From the NCBI GenBank assembly GCA_016932255.1, contig JAFGDE010000008.1:62001-126000 (forward strand): a stretch of 64,000 nt of DNA, read 5' to 3'. The notes under the pieces were generated by a model. The model was not told the origin of the DNA. It saw only the letters and a program-made list of their open reading frames with translations, and did not search any database. Shown one piece after another: positions 45,208-54,400 of this stretch; the stretch's first letter is position 1; each line of letters begins with the position of its first letter. Origin of the DNA: Candidatus Saganbacteria bacterium. Its GTDB lineage: Bacteria > Margulisbacteria > WOR-1 > O2-12-FULL-45-9. A program made the translations under genes and the position numbers.

Positions 45208-46770
45208 CTAACGGGCCACGGTCAGCATGCCGGTGCCCACTGTCCTGCCTTCGGCGTTGATCTGGATGCGGTAGACGCCGGGCGCGACCAGATGGTCGAA
45301 CAGGTCGGTGCCGTCATAGAGGATCTTGGTGACCGCGTCCCTGGTCAGGCTGGTCTGCAGGGTCTTTTTGATCTGGCCGGTGATCGACATCAGGTGGATG
45401 GTCACCGGGCCGGAAAAGCCGTTCTGCGGGGTCAGCTGGATGACCGCGGGATTGGCCGGGGTGATGTTCTTGTTGGGCGAGGGCAGGGCGACCACATCGC
45501 GTTTGGGCGTTGAACTGCCGCCGCCTCCGCCGGAATAACGTTCGATGACAGTGAACGTGGTCGAGGCCAGGCCGCCGTCGCCGTTGATCAGCCGCAGGTC
45601 CCAGGCGCCGGTGGTCGCGGTCAATGAGAGATGCAGGTTGACGATCAGTTGCGCAGCGCTGACCCAGCTGGTCGAGATGCTGTCCGCGCCGCCGCTAACA
45701 CTGGCGGCTGAGACCGTGACCGTGGCTGAAGGCAGGAAATTGGTCCCGTTCAAAGTGAAGCTGCTGTCGTAGCCTTGGTACTTTGAGGCCGGGCCGGCAG
45801 AGATCGTCGGATCGGTCACTCTTTTCAATGATGTCCCGGCCGCTCCGGCGGCCCAGCCATTGTACTGATCGCTGAAAAAGACGCTGTTAATTGCCTGGGT
45901 CGTTTCATTGGTCGCGCTCCAGTTCAGGCCGGCGTTGGTCGTGCTGAGCAATGTGCCGCTGCTGCCCGCGGCAACGCCGTTGCCGGCATCATAAAAGGCG
46001 ACTGCTTGCAGGTCACTGCCGGTACCGCTGGTCTGCAGCGTCCAGTTGGTCCCGCTGTTGGTCGTGGCCATGATAACGCCGCCGGCGCCGACCGCCCAGC
46101 CGTTATTCTGGTCGATAAAATTAAGGTCATTAAGCGTGCTGCCGGTCAGGCCGGCGGCCTGCTGGGACCAGTTGGTCCCGCCATTGGTGGTGCGGTAGAT
46201 CAAACCGTTCTCTCCGGCCACCCAGCCGGTGTCTGCGGAGATGAACTGGACACTCTTAAAGTCGGCGGTGGTGTCTAGGCCAACTACGCATGAGTTCCAG
46301 GTGCTGCCGCCGTCAGTGGTCTTATAGACCGGGATGAACGAGCCGGCGGTGGTGTCGCAGGTGACCCAGCCGGTGTCGTCGGAAATAAAAAAGATGTCGG
46401 TGATCCGGTCCGCGTTGGGGAAAGAGGTCAGCGACGACCAGTTCTCGCCGCTATCGGTCGTCTTGAGGATCAGGCCGTCAGAACCGCTGGACCCGGCGGC
46501 ATAGCCGACGCCGGCTGACGGGCAGTGGACCGCGTTCATGCTGAAGGTCAGGCCCGAGGGGCTTTTACTGGCCCAGGAAACACCGCTGTTGCTGGTCTTG
46601 ATGATCAGCTGGTCGCTGCCAACAGCCAGGCCGGTCATCTGGTCGAAAAAATAAAGTCCGTTGATCTCAGCGCTGGTCCCTGACGTCTGGGTTTGCCAGA
46701 ATGTCGCGGCCTGAGCTGAGTTCAGGCCAAGCGCGAACAATAGTAAAAGTAAAAAGATCTTTCTATTCAT
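45208..46770 (-). CDS. Secreted BNR/Ycf48-like propeller with FlgD/T9SS-like C-terminal domain
   Basis: A 520-aa exported protein with signal peptide MNRKIFLLLLLFALGLNSAQA. Residues ~25-310 hold ~7 blades with the pattern TGWAxGxxGxIxxTTNxGxNW, as in Ycf48/photosystem-assembly-like and sialidase-BNR propellers. An IPT/TIG-like domain (~315-410) and a Gly-rich linker follow. The last ~80 residues (NPAVIQLTPQNGFSGPVTIHL, APGVYRIQINAEG) look like the Ig-like FlgD or T9SS type A sorting domain. It has a leaderless promoter and follows the related 46809 gene. Confidence 0.75.
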   Translation of the reverse strand: MNRKIFLLLLLFALGLNSAQAATFWQTQTSGTSAEINGLYFFDQMTGLAVGSDQLIIKTSNSGVSWASKSPSGLTFSMNAVHCPSAGVGYAAGSSGSDGLILKTTDSGENWSSLTSFPNADRITDIFFISDDTGWVTCDTTAGSFIPVYKTTDGGSTWNSCVVGLDTTADFKSVQFISADTGWVAGENGLIYRTTNGGTNWSQQAAGLTGSTLNDLNFIDQNNGWAVGAGGVIMATTNSGTNWTLQTSGTGSDLQAVAFYDAGNGVAAGSSGTLLSTTNAGLNWSATNETTQAINSVFFSDQYNGWAAGAAGTSLKRVTDPTISAGPASKYQGYDSSFTLNGTNFLPSATVTVSAASVSGGADSISTSWVSAAQLIVNLHLSLTATTGAWDLRLINGDGGLASTTFTVIERYSGGGGGSSTPKRDVVALPSPNKNITPANPAVIQLTPQNGFSGPVTIHLMSITGQIKKTLQTSLTRDAVTKILYDGTDLFDHLVAPGVYRIQINAEGRTVGTGMLTVAR

Positions 46771-46776
46771 ATTTTT

Positions 46777-46785
46777 ATTATATCA
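46777..46785 (-). promoter_or_regulatory. Extended -10 of the 45208 gene, leaderless
   Basis: Minus-strand TGATATAAT ends 6 nt before the ATG at 46770; no Shine-Dalgarno is present. Confidence 0.6.
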
Positions 46786-46808
46786 AATATCCGCCCTGGA
46801 TATCTGGC

Positions 46809-49355
46809 TCATTTCTTGGGCGGGGCGATGATGATCTTGCCCCGTCCCAGGTTGGCGAAATTGACCACGTAAATACCGGGGGGCAGCGCTTGTCCCCAAT
46901 GGTCGGTGCCGCTATAGGTCACCTGGTTAGTGCCCGGCACCACGTTAGCGGTTAGTTTTGCCGCCACTCCGCCCACCGGGCTGATGATGTAAATGTCCGC
47001 CGGGCCGGTGTAGTCCTTTGACTCGAATTGGATGGTCACCGGGTTGCTCGGGGTCGGATTATAATTGGGCGAGGTCACGACGTTGGTGATCCTGTTCTGG
47101 TCTGCCGGAGTGACCGGTTCAAAATAGACCACGTCATAGAGCCGGGTGGTCGAATTGCTTTCATTGTCTTCAGCATAGAGGTAGAGCTTTTTAGCCGCGC
47201 TCTGGGTCAGGACCGTGCGCGCGTCAACCGTGTCACCGGTCATGAAGTTCTTGAGCCAGCGCAGGGTACCCACAGCCGTGCCTTTGGTCGTCGGCGTGGT
47301 TTGATCCGGCGTAAAAGCGGTCGTGCCGTTGAACTGCCAGTAATACTCGACGGGGTCTGATATCTTGATCGTGTAGCTGACCGTTCTGGGGTCCAGGCCG
47401 GTGAAGTCCTCGATCTGGGCCGTGAATTGAGGGTAGGCGGTGAACATTTTTGAGGCGCTGTCGACCGCGTTGCTCGCTTCATAGGTCAGGAAAGTCGGGC
47501 CCAGGCTGTCGGGCCGGACCTCGAAAGTGCTGCTGGCGATGTCAAAGCCTGTGTCCGGGTTGACCAGCATGACGTCGCGCCAGCCGGTGGCCGCGCTCGG
47601 GCTGATATCGATCAGGACCTCAAGCGAGCTGGAATCGACAAAGGTGATCGCCCCAACGCTGACCCCGCTAGTGGGAGAGAAGCTGACCGTGGCGCCGGAC
47701 TGGAAGTCAGACCCGGTGACAATGATGGTCCTGAGCGCGCCCTGGCGGTCCCAGTTGACATTGCCCAGGATCGGATGGACGCGGTAGACCGAGTTCAGCG
47801 TCGGCGGCGGGCTGACGGTAAAAACAGCGCTGTGGTAGCCGCCGTCGCCGTTGCGCACGCCGATGGTCCAATTGCCGGTCGAGCAGCTGGCGCTTAAGGT
47901 GGCGGTGAGAGTGATAGTAGTCGCGTTGTTCCTGACAAAGGTATAGCTGAAGCCGCTGCCGCCGGTCTTGGTCACTTCCACGGTCGCGTCGGCATTGAAG
48001 TTTCCGCCTTCCAGGGTGATCAGGCCGGTCCAGCCCTGGTAGCGGGCCGAAGGCGTAACATTATTAATGGTCGGCGCCGGCAGGACGGTAAAGGCTTCAG
48101 TGGTCACACCGGTATCCGGATTGGTGATCGTGATGGTCCAGTCGCCGGAAGTGGCCGTGCGGTCAAGATAGGCGTTGATGGTTATCTGTCCGTCATTATC
48201 ACGGGTGGCCGAATAATTGACGCCGCTGCCGCCGGCCTTGGTCAGGGTGATCGCTGTGCCAGACTGGAAATTGGCGCCGCTGATCGTGATCGAGCCGGTC
48301 CAGCCCTGAGGCGCTGAAGCGGGATTGACCGCTGTTATCGGCGGGTCGACCACATATTTAGCAACAAAACGGTGGGTAAAGACATTGCCGCCGACCGCCC
48401 AGCCGTTATACCGATCAATGAAATGAACTCCGTTAAGATCATAGGTCGTGCCGCTGGTCTCCGCTGACCAGGATTCACCGGTATCAGTGGTGTTTATTAT
48501 CGCGCCGTTCTGGCCGACCGCCCAGCCATTGGTCTCGTCAGGGAAACTGACACCCAACAGGTCGTTCGTGGAACCACTGGTCTTTCGCGACCAGGTGGTC
48601 CAACCGTTGGTCGATTTCTGGATCTCGCCGTCAAGGCCGAAACCGATCTGATTGCCGACCGCTATCGCGGTAGAGGCGTTGATGATCTCGATCGCGTATA
48701 GAGCTTTCCCTGTGCCTATCGTTTGATCTCCGGACCAGCTTGTCGCGCCATTGCTTGTAGTATTGATCAAGCCGTCAACGCCGGCGACACAGCCGTTGTT
48801 AGCGTCTAGAAAATCGATGCTGTAACAATGCTCTGCGGCGCCAAAAGTACAGGTGATCCCGTTGCCGCTGGCTTGCCAGGATGCGCCGCCGTCAGTGGTC
48901 CGGTAAACATTGAGGGGGTTTGTAAACCAATTTACGGCAGCCCAGCCCGTGTTAGCGTTAGCAAAACAGCAATCCATCACTGCAACACAACTGGGGTTGT
49001 CAACATAGCCTTCGCTCCAGTTGCTGCCGGCATCAGTGGTTTTCCAGTAATAGCCAAAGCTGCCGCGGTCGCCCATCACATAACCCGTGTTGCTGTCAAC
49101 AAAAAAAACTGTATTGCAGTTCTGGTTCGCGTCAGGCGTGAAAAGGGCGGTCCAGTTCTTGCCGCCGTCGGTCGATTTAAGGATGCCACGGTCTTCGCCC
49201 ACGGCAAAACCGGTGGTCTGGCTGGCAAAGTGGACCGCTAGCAGCGGCTGGTCGGAAACATCAAGCAGGGTGACCCATCTAGCTGCGGCCAGGGCAGGGG
49301 AAACGAGCAGCAGGCTGATGGCCAGTGCTGCGGCAAGATGTTTGGCGCGCGTCAT
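46809..49355 (-). CDS. Secreted BNR propeller with three IPT/TIG domains and FlgD/T9SS-like C-terminus
   Basis: A ~848-aa exported protein. The ATG at 49355 (MTRAKHLAAALAISLLLVSPALA) gives a clear signal peptide; the track start 49385 is TTG inside the upstream gene. Residues ~25-335 form a Ycf48-like propeller. Three IPT/TIG Ig domains follow (APQGWTGSITISGANFQSG, YQGWTGLITLEGGNFN, TIIVTGSDFQSGATVSF). The last ~85 residues match the C-terminal domain of the 45208 product (NPVTIQFESKDYTGPADIYI, PGIYVVNFANLGRGKI). It starts 7 nt after the PorV-SLH gene, so both share an operon. Confidence 0.75.
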   Translation of the reverse strand: MTRAKHLAAALAISLLLVSPALAAARWVTLLDVSDQPLLAVHFASQTTGFAVGEDRGILKSTDGGKNWTALFTPDANQNCNTVFFVDSNTGYVMGDRGSFGYYWKTTDAGSNWSEGYVDNPSCVAVMDCCFANANTGWAAVNWFTNPLNVYRTTDGGASWQASGNGITCTFGAAEHCYSIDFLDANNGCVAGVDGLINTTSNGATSWSGDQTIGTGKALYAIEIINASTAIAVGNQIGFGLDGEIQKSTNGWTTWSRKTSGSTNDLLGVSFPDETNGWAVGQNGAIINTTDTGESWSAETSGTTYDLNGVHFIDRYNGWAVGGNVFTHRFVAKYVVDPPITAVNPASAPQGWTGSITISGANFQSGTAITLTKAGGSGVNYSATRDNDGQITINAYLDRTATSGDWTITITNPDTGVTTEAFTVLPAPTINNVTPSARYQGWTGLITLEGGNFNADATVEVTKTGGSGFSYTFVRNNATTITLTATLSASCSTGNWTIGVRNGDGGYHSAVFTVSPPPTLNSVYRVHPILGNVNWDRQGALRTIIVTGSDFQSGATVSFSPTSGVSVGAITFVDSSSLEVLIDISPSAATGWRDVMLVNPDTGFDIASSTFEVRPDSLGPTFLTYEASNAVDSASKMFTAYPQFTAQIEDFTGLDPRTVSYTIKISDPVEYYWQFNGTTAFTPDQTTPTTKGTAVGTLRWLKNFMTGDTVDARTVLTQSAAKKLYLYAEDNESNSTTRLYDVVYFEPVTPADQNRITNVVTSPNYNPTPSNPVTIQFESKDYTGPADIYIISPVGGVAAKLTANVVPGTNQVTYSGTDHWGQALPPGIYVVNFANLGRGKIIIAPPKK

Positions 49356-49362
49356 CAAGGTC

Positions 49363-51273
49363 TTAATACCCCTTGCTGAAGTCAAGCAGGTCCTGGATCA
49401 GGAGGTTGACGGGTTTGCTGCGGTAGAGCATTTCGACCGCTTCAGCCCGGGTCAGGTCCAGCTTGGGCCCGAATGGTTTGCTCAGGAAATGGATCAGCAT
49501 GCCCTCTTTATAAGCGCCGGCGACGATCGGGGCGACCCAGTGAGTGCTGTCCATGTCAATAAATTCATCGGTATAAGGGACCTGCGCCACGCCGCCGAAG
49601 CGGGCGATCATGGCCAGGCCTTCGGCCCGGCTGATCCTGGCCGACGGCTTGAAACTGCCGTCAGGATAGCCTTTGACAATGCCGCTCTTGGCTGCCATGT
49701 TGATGTATTTAGCCGCCCAGTGCGTCAGCGCTACGTCAGCAAACATCTGAGCCTCGGCCTGGGGCACGTTGTCGTCGCCGCCCATCTTGGTCCTGACCAG
49801 CAGGGTGGCCAGCTCGGCCCGGGTGATGGTGCCTTCCGGCTTGAAACCGCCGTCGGGATACCCCTTGATGATACCGAGGGTGCCGATGTAGCTGATCTGA
49901 TCCGCGGCCCAGTGGTCAGCGGCCACGTCAGGATAGGTGATCAGGCGCAGAGCGCGCAGTTTGATCGCTTCGATCGAGCCGCCTTTATTATTGAGGCCCT
50001 TGACCGTGACCAGGTTCTTGCCGACCTCAAGGGCCGCTTCGGTGCGGAACTCGCCGTGCAGGTTGAGGCTGGCGCGCTGGTCATTGACCGTGACCCTGGT
50101 GATATCAGGATCAAAGGCGCGGCCTTTGACGGCCAGCTGGGCTTCCCGGGTAATGACCTTGTCAGGCGCGGCGTAGAGCCGGGTCTCGATGCGTTTGACC
50201 GGCGCTATGCCGTAGGAGAAGGAGAAAAAATGGTTCATGATGCCGGGCGCGCCAAAGAACTCGTGGTAAGCGTAATCAAAACGGAAATTGCCGTAGTAGA
50301 GGCCGACCCCGGTGGTCAGGTTATTGGCCACTTCCTTGGCGCCGACAACGTCCTGGTCAATGCCGGCCCTGATGCCGATCAGGGTGTTGGGCTTCCACTC
50401 CAGTCCGAGATGGAACAGAGCCGGTATGTAGCTTGACCGGCTGACCTCATAATCCATGTCCAGCAGCAGTTTAAGCTGATGGTCCCAGATCTTGCGCAGG
50501 GCGTCCTTGGGGCCGAGCAGGTCAACAGCTGAGCCGAGCTTGAGCAGGGCGGGATAGGATTCTTCCCAGCCTGTTTGATAGGTCAGTTTGCCGCCCATGG
50601 AAAACGGCAGGGCGTTCTGGAGGTTGGCGCCGAGCGAGAGCCAGGGCAGCGGCTTGCCCTGAACGCCCAGGTCAAGCTCCATGCCGTTGGCCGCGCCGCC
50701 GGTGATGCCGTCGCCGGTCAGGTTGACCTGGAAGAACTTGAGGTTGGCGCCGAAGTGCGTTTGCCTGAGGTCAGGCCAGCGGTCAGCCAGTCCGGACAAA
50801 AGCGGCAGATCAAGCGCCCGGTCGATCTTGTTGCCGTAGGACAGGATGAACAGATTATTATAGTAGCTGATCAATTCCTGGGAAGTGTCGACCACATAGA
50901 CCGGGTCATCAGGGTCGGAGCCGGCTTCGATCGTCGTGGGCAAAGCGCCGCCGATCGATGAACCGACAAAAGCCAGGCCAAAGGTGCCGATCTGGGTCGG
51001 ATAAAGGCCGGACAGCGATAAGTAATTGTACTCTTCCAGCAGTTTGCCGGACATTGAGGTCAATTGCCATTGTTCAGGATTGGCCAGGCCGGCGGGATTG
51101 ATGAAAATGGAATCAATGTCATCCGCCAGGCCGACAAAGGCCTTGCCCATGCCCAGCGTCCGGGCGCCGGTGGCCAGCCGGATCGGGTCAGGAGCGTTCT
51201 GGGCTAGAGCGGTGCCGGCAAAAAAGAACAGAGTGAGCTGGAAGAGAAGGCAACAAACTAGTGATCGCTTCAT
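49363..51273 (-). CDS. PorV/FadL-type outer-membrane barrel fused to three SLH domains
   Basis: A 636-aa protein. The signal peptide is MKRSLVCCLLFQLTLFFFAGTALAQ. Residues ~25-365 show the PorV/PorQ signature GARTLGMGKAFVGLADD followed by FINPAGLAN and barrel-like strands. A small Ig-like region follows (~370-440). Three SLH domains end the protein (ITYPDVAADHWAADQI, FADVALTHWAAKYI, DMDSTHWVAPIV; GIIKGYPDGGFKPEGTITRAE). SLH domains bind pyruvylated cell-wall polymers and tie the outer membrane to the wall in several diderms. The track start 51282 is TTG abutting the -10; ATG 51273 fits the promoter better. Confidence 0.85.
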   Translation of the reverse strand: MKRSLVCCLLFQLTLFFFAGTALAQNAPDPIRLATGARTLGMGKAFVGLADDIDSIFINPAGLANPEQWQLTSMSGKLLEEYNYLSLSGLYPTQIGTFGLAFVGSSIGGALPTTIEAGSDPDDPVYVVDTSQELISYYNNLFILSYGNKIDRALDLPLLSGLADRWPDLRQTHFGANLKFFQVNLTGDGITGGAANGMELDLGVQGKPLPWLSLGANLQNALPFSMGGKLTYQTGWEESYPALLKLGSAVDLLGPKDALRKIWDHQLKLLLDMDYEVSRSSYIPALFHLGLEWKPNTLIGIRAGIDQDVVGAKEVANNLTTGVGLYYGNFRFDYAYHEFFGAPGIMNHFFSFSYGIAPVKRIETRLYAAPDKVITREAQLAVKGRAFDPDITRVTVNDQRASLNLHGEFRTEAALEVGKNLVTVKGLNNKGGSIEAIKLRALRLITYPDVAADHWAADQISYIGTLGIIKGYPDGGFKPEGTITRAELATLLVRTKMGGDDNVPQAEAQMFADVALTHWAAKYINMAAKSGIVKGYPDGSFKPSARISRAEGLAMIARFGGVAQVPYTDEFIDMDSTHWVAPIVAGAYKEGMLIHFLSKPFGPKLDLTRAEAVEMLYRSKPVNLLIQDLLDFSKGY

Positions 51274-51395: not shown

Positions 51396-51488
51396 TCAGG
51401 CGATGAGGCGGCCGGATCCTCTGACGATGATGGGACCGAAGCTATAAATTCCGGAAGAAAAAATATGAGTCCAAAGGAGGCTCTGCAA

Positions 51489-52934
51489 ATGAAGAAGATA
51501 GTTCTGGCCCTTGTCCCCTTGTTCCTGTTCGCGGCGCTGATAGTTGTTTCCGGTTGCGAAGATTCCAAATTATTCCCTGACCTGACCACCACGACCCTGG
51601 CGACCACCACGACCCTGGCAACCACCACGACATCCACCACGACCACCACCTTGCCTCAGGTAGCCGCGCCGGCCTTTTCCGTGGCTTCCGGCAGCTTTAC
51701 CCAGCCCACGCTGACCGTGACGATCGAAACGGCCACGCCGGGCGCTAACATATATTATTCCCTGGGCGCGGCCAGCGCCAGCTCCCTTAAAGCAGCGGCC
51801 GGCTCCAGCGTGACCCTGACCTTGGACAGATCAAAGACCGTTACTGCTTTCGCGGTCAAGCCCGGTTATGAAGACAGCCAGACCGTGAGCGCGACCTATG
51901 AGCTGTACGGCTGGAGCCAGGTGGTTTCCGGCTCGATCGGCGATGATCCTTGCGTATATGCCCTGGCAGCCGGCAGCCTTTACGTTGGCGGTGAATTCAC
52001 ATCAATGGACGGGACAACTGTTCTTGATATCGCCGGTTTGACTGGCAGTACCTGGTCGTCTTTAGGCGGCGGGGTAGGCTCAGTTGTATATGCCCTGGCA
52101 GTGGACCCGGCCACTGGCGAGCTTTACACTGGCGGAGGTTTTACAACTGCCGGCGGACTTTCAGCTAATAGGATCGCTAAATGGAACGGCGCGACCTGGG
52201 AAGCGCTGGGCAGCGGCATGAATGACGAAGTTTTGGGCATAGCATTCAAAGACCAAACATCAAGTAATATGTATGCTGTTGGGGAATTTGACACTGCGGG
52301 AGGCCTAACTGCCCGCGGCATTGCCATGTGGAATGCTGGCACTTCATCCTGGGAAACTGTTGGCGGTGGAGGAGTGAACATAGGTGCTGACCCTGTTTAT
52401 GCCTGTGTGGTTGATCCGAACACCGGTGATCTGTATATCGGCGGCGGATTTACCAGTGTTGGCGGAGTCGGGGCCAACAATATCGCTAAATGGGACGGCA
52501 CGACCTGGGAAGCGCTGGGCAGCGGCACAAATGACTGGGTCCGAGCCCTGGCCATTGATCCGGCTACTGGCGACCTATATGTTGGCGGTGATTTTACCAC
52601 TGCCGGCGGAGAAACGGTCAACCATGTCGCCAAATGGAACGGCACAACTTGGGGTGGTCCGAATATCGGCATGAATAACAATGTCTATGCTATTGCTCTT
52701 GACAGCGCCAACAGCGTGCTTTATGTGGGAGGCAGCTTTACCAGCGCTGACGGTGTACCGGCCGATCGTATCGCGAGCTTTAACGGAACGACCTGGGAAG
52801 CATTGGATGCCGGGATCGATGGCCGGGTCGAAGCTTTATGCCTTGACTCTGCCGGCGACCTTTATGTCGGCGGCTACTTTTTAAGGGCTGGTCCATTATC
52901 AGCCTGCTGCCTGGCTAAATGGGGCAAAAAGTAA
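51489..52934 (+). CDS. Lipoprotein with CHB_HEX-like domain and seven-blade propeller (paralogue A)
   Basis: A ~481-aa lipoprotein from ATG 51489 (AAGGAGG 8 nt upstream), with lipobox VVSGC. A Thr-rich linker (TTTTLATTTT) is followed by a chitobiase/CHB_HEX_C-like Ig domain (~60-140; TPGANIYYSLG). Seven ~50-aa repeats of the form LYVGGxFTxAGGxxxNxIAKWNGxxWEALG follow, as expected for a closed propeller. It ends AKWGKK. It is paired with the paralogue 26 nt downstream and ends up at the membrane after LspA/Lgt processing. The ligand is unknown. Confidence 0.8.
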   Translation: MKKIVLALVPLFLFAALIVVSGCEDSKLFPDLTTTTLATTTTLATTTTSTTTTTLPQVAAPAFSVASGSFTQPTLTVTIETATPGANIYYSLGAASASSLKAAAGSSVTLTLDRSKTVTAFAVKPGYEDSQTVSATYELYGWSQVVSGSIGDDPCVYALAAGSLYVGGEFTSMDGTTVLDIAGLTGSTWSSLGGGVGSVVYALAVDPATGELYTGGGFTTAGGLSANRIAKWNGATWEALGSGMNDEVLGIAFKDQTSSNMYAVGEFDTAGGLTARGIAMWNAGTSSWETVGGGGVNIGADPVYACVVDPNTGDLYIGGGFTSVGGVGANNIAKWDGTTWEALGSGTNDWVRALAIDPATGDLYVGGDFTTAGGETVNHVAKWNGTTWGGPNIGMNNNVYAIALDSANSVLYVGGSFTSADGVPADRIASFNGTTWEALDAGIDGRVEALCLDSAGDLYVGGYFLRAGPLSACCLAKWGKK

Positions 52935-52960
52935 TTAAGGAAGCAAAGGAGGATATAAAA

Positions 52961-54400
52961 ATGAAAAACTATCTCGCGCTTAGCCTGGTCATTCTATTGT
53001 TCGCCGGAGCGTTCTTGATCTCCGGTTGTGAAGACTCAAAGCTTTTCCCTGACCTGACCACGACTACTGCGACTACGCTTAGTACCAGCACTACCAGCAC
53101 CAGCAGCACTACCAGCACCACCCTGGCCCAGGTGGCGGCCCCGACCTTCTCGATCGCTTCAGGCAGTTATGAGGCCGGGACCCTGACCGTGACCATTGAG
53201 TGCGCGACGCCTGGGGCCAGTATCTATTATGTCCAGAGCGGCGCCGGCGCGGCGGCTGCCGGGCTTAAAGCAGCGGCCAGCGGGCCGGTGACCCTGGCCC
53301 TTGATGCCTCAGCCACGATCGAGGCATTTGCGGCCAAAGCTGGCTGTCTTGACAGTGCCACGGCCTCAGCCTGGTATGATGTCTACGGCTGGCAGCAGTA
53401 TGGCGCTGATTTTTTTGATGCCAGCTCGTCGTATACGGAAATTAACGCGATATGCAGCGGCAGTATGTATGTGGGCGGTGCTTTTGATACGGTTGGCGGC
53501 GCCACCTTTAATAACATAGCAAAATGGAGCGGTTCAAGCTGGGAAGCCTTAGGCAGCGGCATGAACGGCGGTGTCCTGGCCCTGGCCAACGACGGCTCCG
53601 GCAACCTGTATGCTGGCGGTAGTTTTACCACAGCCGGCGGGGTAACTGTGAACAGGATCGCGAAATGGGATGGCAGTAACTGGTCGGGAGTGGGTGGTTC
53701 AGCGGATAATACTGTTAGAGCCCTGAAGTTTGATGGTTCCGGCAATCTGTATGCCGGAGGAAGCTTTTCTGCGCTTGGCGGAGCCTCTAACAATATCGGG
53801 CAATGGGACGGCAGTACCTGGTCAGCGCTCAGCACCGGGATGAACGGCGCTGTCCTGGCCCTGGCAAACGACACTTCAGGTAATTTATATGCCGGTGGTT
53901 ACTTTACCACAGCCGGCGGGGTAACTGTGAACAGGATCGCGAAATGGGATGGCAGTACCTGGGAGGCTCTGGCTGCCGGGGTGAGCGACTCGGTCTATGC
54001 TTTGGTTTGTGACGGTTCCGGCAACCTGTATGCCGGCGGCAGATTTAACATAGCCAGCGGTGTAACTGTGAACGCTGTCGCGAAATGGGATGGCAGTACC
54101 TGGGAAGCTCTGGGTAGCGGCATGGACTACGATGTTTATTCCCTGACTCTTGACAATGCGGGCAACCTGTATGCCGGCGGTGACTTTACCACAGCTGGTG
54201 GTGTAGTTGTGAACAGGATCGCGAAATGGGATGGCGCGAATTGGTCAGCTGTGGGTGATGGATTAGACGGTATTGTGGCTGAGGGTAACTCAGTAAAAGA
54301 TATTCTAATAGACGCGCAGGGTAATATTTTCGCGGTCGGCAGTTTTGCCGGCAGCGGCAGCACAGCTATCAGGGGAGTGGCTAAGTTCGGCAAGAAATAG
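52961..54400 (+). CDS. Lipoprotein with CHB_HEX-like domain and seven-blade propeller (paralogue B)
   Basis: A ~479-aa lipoprotein from ATG 52961 (AAAGGAGG upstream). Lipobox LISGC and the next residues EDSKLFPDLTTT are identical to paralogue A. A Thr/Ser linker, a CHB_HEX_C-like domain and seven LYAGGxFTTAGGVTVNRIAKWDG blades follow. Several blades are nearly identical in DNA (55-bp exact copies at 53624-53678 and 53903-53957), which suggests recent blade duplication or conversion. It ends just before a strong terminator. Confidence 0.8.
   Translation: MKNYLALSLVILLFAGAFLISGCEDSKLFPDLTTTTATTLSTSTTSTSSTTSTTLAQVAAPTFSIASGSYEAGTLTVTIECATPGASIYYVQSGAGAAAAGLKAAASGPVTLALDASATIEAFAAKAGCLDSATASAWYDVYGWQQYGADFFDASSSYTEINAICSGSMYVGGAFDTVGGATFNNIAKWSGSSWEALGSGMNGGVLALANDGSGNLYAGGSFTTAGGVTVNRIAKWDGSNWSGVGGSADNTVRALKFDGSGNLYAGGSFSALGGASNNIGQWDGSTWSALSTGMNGAVLALANDTSGNLYAGGYFTTAGGVTVNRIAKWDGSTWEALAAGVSDSVYALVCDGSGNLYAGGRFNIASGVTVNAVAKWDGSTWEALGSGMDYDVYSLTLDNAGNLYAGGDFTTAGGVVVNRIAKWDGANWSAVGDGLDGIVAEGNSVKDILIDAQGNIFAVGSFAGSGSTAIRGVAKFGKK
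53624..53957. repeat. Near-identical DNA repeats encoding propeller blades
   Basis: TTTACCACAGCCGGCGGGGT... to GGCAGTA (55 bp) is present exactly at 53624-53678 and 53903-53957, with diverged copies near 54068-54100 and 54185-54232. These can recombine and change blade number or sequence. Confidence 0.85.

Follow-up and report, generated by a model that had tools for sequence, protein, structure and literature searches.

PorV-class barrels paired with type IX-like tail proteins, likely surface-display carrier pairs in Margulisbacteria

Barrels of the PorV class, the carrier half of the type IX secretion system (T9SS), are encoded across Margulisbacteria next to proteins that end in a T9SS type A-like tail, and such genes are likely to be surface-display carrier pairs. 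Three genes in the 64,000-nucleotide stretch of DNA analysed here (the window) are, on the evidence of their sequences, probably one copy of this phylum-wide cassette, in which a passenger would be docked by its tail on a private barrel of the PorV/PorQ type that is tied to the cell wall by S-layer homology (SLH) domains. The first-pass annotation of these genes had suggested a T9SS-like secretion or wall-tied display module; the display part of this suggestion gains support from the profile searches, the phylum-wide pairing and csaB, whereas the T9SS core (SprA, GldL, GldM and the C25 peptidase) was not recovered.

A three-gene locus encoding a barrel and two propeller proteins

The source genome is a 1.67-Mb bin that is 90% complete. 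The locus consists of three co-directional ORFs on the minus strand (Table 1), with hrcA-grpE-dnaK-dnaJ, named from sequence, downstream on the same strand. As judged by eye, hydrophobic Sec-type signal sequences are present at the N-terminus of all three products, and the likelier start of the second gene is an ATG near 49352. The two features from which the initial proposal had started, a PorV-type protein fused to three SLH domains and two exported propellers beside it, were both borne out: the family profile of the barrel leads to PorV and three PF00395 matches follow, the third of them weak, while the neighbouring products combine PSII_BNR/Ycf48 matches with the Sec-type signals. The two propeller proteins are 35% identical to each other, and in both the tail occupies the C-terminal 80-100 residues.

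Divergent from the barrel gene, positions 51465-54400 (plus strand) of the window encode two tandem paralogous lipoproteins without a tail, in which the lipobox is followed by EDSKLFPDLTTTT, a chitobiase-C/Fn3-like domain and a Rax2/DUF5122 propeller.

Table 1. Features of the three-gene locus (window coordinates)
Feature	Position	Strand	Evidence
PorV-class barrel + Ig-like domain + three SLH, 636 aa	49363..51273	-	Curated-model matches and family profile
PorV/PorQ-type barrel region	50203..51195	-	NF033709, 72 bits; profile to 6h3i_F
Ig-like linker (Glucodextran_B match, residues 374-438)	49969..50163	-	PF09136, E=4.9e-7
SLH domain 1	49807..49938	-	PF00395, 48.6 bits
SLH domain 2	49618..49746	-	PF00395, 55.9 bits
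SLH domain 3, degenerate/weak	49435..49566	-	PF00395, 21 bits
Exported Ycf48-like propeller + TIG domains + C-terminal tail, 858 aa from TTG	46809..49385	-	Pfam PSII_BNR, 9.6e-19; TIG
Tail of 858-aa protein, putative docking type, seven-strand beta-sandwich, C-terminal Lys kept	46821..47075	-	Tail model, E=6e-8; AlphaFold2, pLDDT 78
Exported Ycf48-like propeller + TIG-like domain + C-terminal tail, 520 aa	45208..46770	-	Pfam PSII_BNR, 5.3e-26
Tail of 520-aa protein, M in place of C-terminal Lys	45211..45483	-	Tail model, E=2e-6; TIGR04183, 15 bits, below cut-off

The barrel belongs to the PorV class and carries a C-terminal SLH region

A profile built from 44 barrels of the family found PorV (6h3i_F) as its best PDB match at E=1.5e-23, aligned over positions 1-228 and 239-313 of 336, the second-best match, a FadL-like protein, reaching 1.7e-3; because of this ranking, the window barrel is assigned to the PorV class, as more than merely FadL-like. 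The window protein itself remained under the curated cut-off of 90 bits of NCBIfam PorV_fam (NF033709), which was passed by two of its paralogues in the same genome (142 and 95 bits); a PorV model made from this genome, with the window protein in its training set, scored it at 503 bits. The closest database record, from 'Candidatus Margulisiibacteriota bacterium', shows 47% identity in its best segment (residues 28-631), and the nearest orthologue (in L064) stands alone, without a cassette partner. An AlphaFold2 model of the barrel-SLH protein was discarded, as its pLDDT was 29 and its alignment held two sequences, its own and one orthologue. A further barrel architecture was observed in L088 (3372-5846), where an 824-aa ORF places a PorV-like barrel N-terminal to an apparent SppA-type (S49) signal peptide peptidase.

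The order barrel, Ig-like domain and SLH, described as unusual in the first-pass annotation, was confirmed, with the SLH region C-terminal to the barrel, unlike the N-terminal-SLH layout of OmpM/SomA porins; the cassette is, however, one of many in the genome and not an isolated oddity. Both termini of PorV-family barrels face the periplasm, and thus the C-terminal SLH region would lie on the wall side. This region matches Sap and also 8bym and 8bys, two S-layer homology proteins that we take to be OmpM of Veillonella. The pyruvyl-transferase gene csaB, whose product usually supplies the pyruvylated ligand to which SLH domains bind, scores over its equivalog cut-off in the same genome (C14), beside a tagA-type gene. 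Three SLH repeats and the csaB pathway gene are therefore both present, and wall binding itself is predicted. Proteins with N-terminal SLH domains are also encoded in this genome (e.g., C6:47406).

The C-terminal tails resemble those of PorU and PorZ

Curated T9SS-tail and FlgD models score both window tails weakly: for TIGR04183, with a cut-off of 23 bits, the 520-aa protein stays below it and the 858-aa protein has no listed match, and six other proteins of the genome exceed the cut-off. A tail model built from other proteins of the genome matched the last 80-90 residues of both window propeller proteins (Table 1) and gave no match to reversed proteins of the same set. When a profile of 55 tails was ranked against the PDB, the C-terminal domains (CTDs) of PorU (3e-10) and PorZ (1.6e-9) came first, followed by FlgD (9e-9), and the substrate CTDs of the PorV complex (8glk/8glj) matched at 0.005-0.008. 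The PorU and PorZ matches cover positions 4-99 of 99, whereas those of FlgD do not reach the PNP motif at the N-terminus or the final, Lys-bearing strand. A near-invariant Lys close to the C-terminus is typical of type A CTDs (PMC10994853); it is kept in 43 of the 55 family tails, including that of the 858-aa protein, and is lost in the 520-aa protein.

The AlphaFold2 model of the 858-aa protein's tail is an Ig-like sandwich, for which a structure search returned the PorU CTD (Z 10.0, rmsd 2.5, 91 residues) and the PorZ CTD (Z 8.8). Many unrelated Ig folds were also found at Z 8-9, and the FlgD Ig domain was among the best Foldseek rows; structure therefore does not separate PorU/PorZ from FlgD or other Ig domains. 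The comparison of C-terminal domain structures proposed in the first-pass annotation thus agreed with a sandwich and did not discriminate further, and of its two readings for the tails, T9SS type A or FlgD-like, the former is favoured by the lead of PorU and PorZ in the profile ranking, while a plain FlgD domain is disfavoured by the omitted first motif and last strand.

Tails were also seen in other settings. Two proteins of 113 and 117 aa (L075 8387-8728 and L077 7688-8041) consist of a signal sequence and a tail and overlap a PorV gene, one of them matching the PorZ CTD at 33 bits, and additional tail mini-proteins of 109 aa occur in L136 and L145. Orphan tail proteins of 380-490 aa with a YPSP variant lie away from PorV genes (G000 C25:167668, C15:28907, C18:129551 and C22:146572). 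At the other extreme, frames of 3,000-9,000 aa that end in a tail directly precede PorV genes (G006 C1:801099 and 656433; G010 C1:17813; G036 C1:297443), most of them with internal tail-like repeats as well.

PorV and tail genes are paired across the phylum

The genome harbors approximately 15 PorV genes, 11 of which carry SLH (three repeats in nine of them, a single repeat in two). In the stretches that were read, 22 tail genes were counted. A tail gene adjoins 10 of the 15 PorV genes, frequently with 4-bp overlaps, and no tail neighbour was detected for the other five. The closest paralogue of the window barrel (C15:23800, 65% identity) lies beside a Ycf48-TIG-tail protein that is 34% identical to that of the window, and the next one (C25:173751, 48%) adjoins a Ycf48 protein in which no tail was detected. 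As these paralogous barrels keep Ycf48-type neighbours, the type of passenger appears to have moved along with the type of carrier.

PorV matches were found in 51 of 55 genomes (this one and 54 relatives), and a genome typically encodes 5-16 barrels. Forty stretches from relatives were chosen on PorV alone and contain 42 PorV genes and 259 other genes; in them, a co-directional tail gene adjoins 34 of the PorV genes compared with 26 of the others (p=4e-21). The intergenic gaps in these pairs are mostly -4 to 60 bp, and the tail gene is upstream in 34 of 36 pairings, so that the order in the window, with the barrel first, is the rarer arrangement. Likewise, three near-complete genomes contain 36 PorV genes, of which 20 start less than 150 bp from a tail, against a random expectation of 0.03. 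Of the 42 PorV genes in the 40 stretches, 17 lack SLH altogether, and most of these 17 are paired too; this suggests that the pairing is the core of the cassette and SLH an add-on.

Distances between PorV proteins and between tails are correlated over all 44 pairs (r=0.72), a correlation that may stem from the conservation of orthologous pairs and not from specificity. Within this genome they are not (r=0.02, 10 pairs), and strict cognate specificity is therefore unproven.

No canonical type IX core was found

The core models of T9SS (SprA, GldL, GldM and C25 peptidase) were searched in the 55 genomes, without a T9SS-positive control genome. No genome contained a full SprA/Sov translocon over the cut-off, the matches amounting at most to a module of about 90 residues. 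GldL/PorL and GldM/PorM were not found in this genome and gave no convincing match in the 54 relatives; a PorU-type C25 peptidase is absent from this genome, and a C25 domain occurs in just two of the 55 (G005 and G023). Matches in the relatives are isolated or weak, none of the 54 having SprA, GldL, GldM and C25 as a convincing set, and PorP/SprF had no match among those listed for the proteins scanned with curated models. Because GldL, GldM, a PorU-type peptidase and full SprA were not found in this genome, nor convincingly as a set in the relatives, a canonical T9SS is not supported. In the first-pass annotation, a missing T9SS core combined with ordinary FlgD folds was taken to speak against its proposal; within the models searched, the core is indeed missing, whereas the tails differ from a plain FlgD domain.

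The SprA module is shared by two conserved large outer-membrane proteins (about 1020 and 1370 aa), with 47 bits for the 1366-aa one. In two relatives (G036 and G051), a tail gene, a PorV gene and a SprA-module gene are consecutive. Most of the proteins of about 1000 aa have no PorV gene immediately before them, and several follow a gene for an NHL propeller. Considered as translocon candidates, the 1019- and 1366-aa proteins remain a weak lead: outside the module their sequences are unlike SprA, the profiles of both find no SprA in the PDB, the module also matches in Thermus, and PorV mostly does not precede those of about 1000 aa. The module proteins are phylum-wide (e.g., L094 4624-8724 and L095 4710-7769), with several repeats of the module in the larger one, whose gene and a tail gene converge in C25 of this genome, L121 and L123.

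Alternative explanations

These observations bear on several other readings. The locus might belong to a genuine T9SS whose core is too divergent to detect; the PorV-SLH protein would then be a normal shuttle, and the propellers would be ordinary type A cargo that is sorted or set free once transported. The substrate side of such a system is indeed represented here by PorV and type A-like tails, and the SprA-module proteins, with their consecutive genes in two genomes, point in the same direction. Nevertheless, the GldL, GldM and C25 models all fail in this genome, no relative holds a set, and the SprA likeness is confined to a single module that Thermus shares and that neither profile could extend to SprA in the PDB; we thus regard an undetected T9SS as decidedly improbable. 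Less improbable, though still unlikely, is that the PorV-SLH protein is a plain tether between outer membrane and wall or a FadL-like porin, with independent neighbours and an Ig-like tail that does not dock. SLH porins occur in Negativicutes and cyanobacteria, the SLH region matches 8bym and 8bys, and the Ig-like fold of the tail is common, as the many unrelated structures at Z 8-9 illustrate. However, the adjacency of PorV and tail genes is far above chance across the phylum, the barrel profile prefers PorV over other FadL barrels, and the PorV genes that lack SLH are mostly still paired, which argues that tethering is not the common function.

A connection with the flagellum was also considered, in which the tail would be a FlgD-type domain and the cassettes flagellar or hook accessories. 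The FlgD Ig domain is indeed among the best profile matches and Foldseek rows, and one cassette group of this genome directly follows fliP-fliR-flhB-flhA. The PNP motif and the Lys-bearing last strand nevertheless fall outside the FlgD matches; the window proteins begin with Sec-like signals and lack a FlgD hook-cap region, a propeller and TIG domains preceding the tail instead; and most cassettes are away from flagellar genes. Such a role consequently seems very improbable. In the flagella-adjacent group (G000 C15; L168 6634-12342 and L079), FlgEFG-type, FliM-like, fliP, fliR, flhB and flhA genes lead directly into two genes for tail proteins of about 1200 aa, two PorV-SLH genes and one Ycf48 passenger.

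Proposed mechanism and comparison with known systems

The carrier-passenger cassette that we favour could operate as follows. The two propeller proteins would cross the inner membrane via Sec, and their uncleaved C-terminal beta-sandwich, of the PorU/PorZ kind, would dock to the dedicated PorV-like barrel at its outer loops and remain there as a permanent anchor, holding the passenger at the cell surface. The Ig-like spacer and SLH domains could reach the wall polymer, as the C-terminus of the barrel is expected to be periplasmic, and may bind this polymer once CsaB pyruvylation has made it acceptable, fixing the complex to the wall.

In Porphyromonas, PorQ holds the propeller protein PorZ at the surface and PorV holds PorU (PMC5562754), and the CTDs of both PorZ and PorU stay uncleaved (PMC11285876). 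The cassettes resemble these two pairs of the T9SS attachment complex in the sequence matches of tail and barrel and, presumably, in retaining a surface protein with an uncleaved CTD on a barrel of the PorV/PorQ class. Whereas Porphyromonas has one PorV, one PorQ and a full T9SS, Margulisbacteria have 5-16 gene-paired barrels and SLH fusions, and PorU, PorL and PorM were not found. Type B substrates in Flavobacterium each use a PorP/SprF carrier of their own, whose gene commonly follows immediately downstream, and sometimes the wall anchor PorE (PMC12618676, PMC9143113). A carrier encoded next to its substrate and a predicted wall anchoring through a peptidoglycan-binding part are shared with these systems, but here the carrier is PorV-type, the tail type A-like and the SLH anchor fused to the carrier. 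Similarly, an outer-membrane barrel linked to the wall via SLH, as predicted here, recalls the SLH porins and tethers OmpM/SomA, which differ in the position of SLH, in the class of barrel and in the partner gene present here. With FlgD the tails share a broad beta-sandwich and a partial profile match; unlike FlgD, the cassette proteins have no hook-cap region and their tails bear additional motifs at the termini, as type A CTDs do.

Conclusions

In the literature consulted, T9SS is restricted to Bacteroidota or its superphylum and a single PorV serves all type A substrates, and we found no report in the open-licence literature on PorV together with SLH or S-layer homology, on type IX secretion in Margulisbacteria or on PorV in candidate phyla. 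In Margulisbacteria, the carrier half of T9SS is multiplied, paired with passengers and fused to anchors, and motor and sortase were not found. A broader proposal, which we regard as possible but doubtful, is that a motor-less, reduced relative of type IX secretion extends across the phylum, with private PorV carriers for one surface protein each, many of them locked to the wall by SLH and possibly fed by a small SprA-module barrel, and that this relative, being found outside the Bacteroidota group, might be ancestral to T9SS or a sister to it. With these cassettes, one can test whether the display of proteins by PorV-type barrels is possible without a T9SS motor and whether T9SS may have originated from a simpler carrier-passenger pair.
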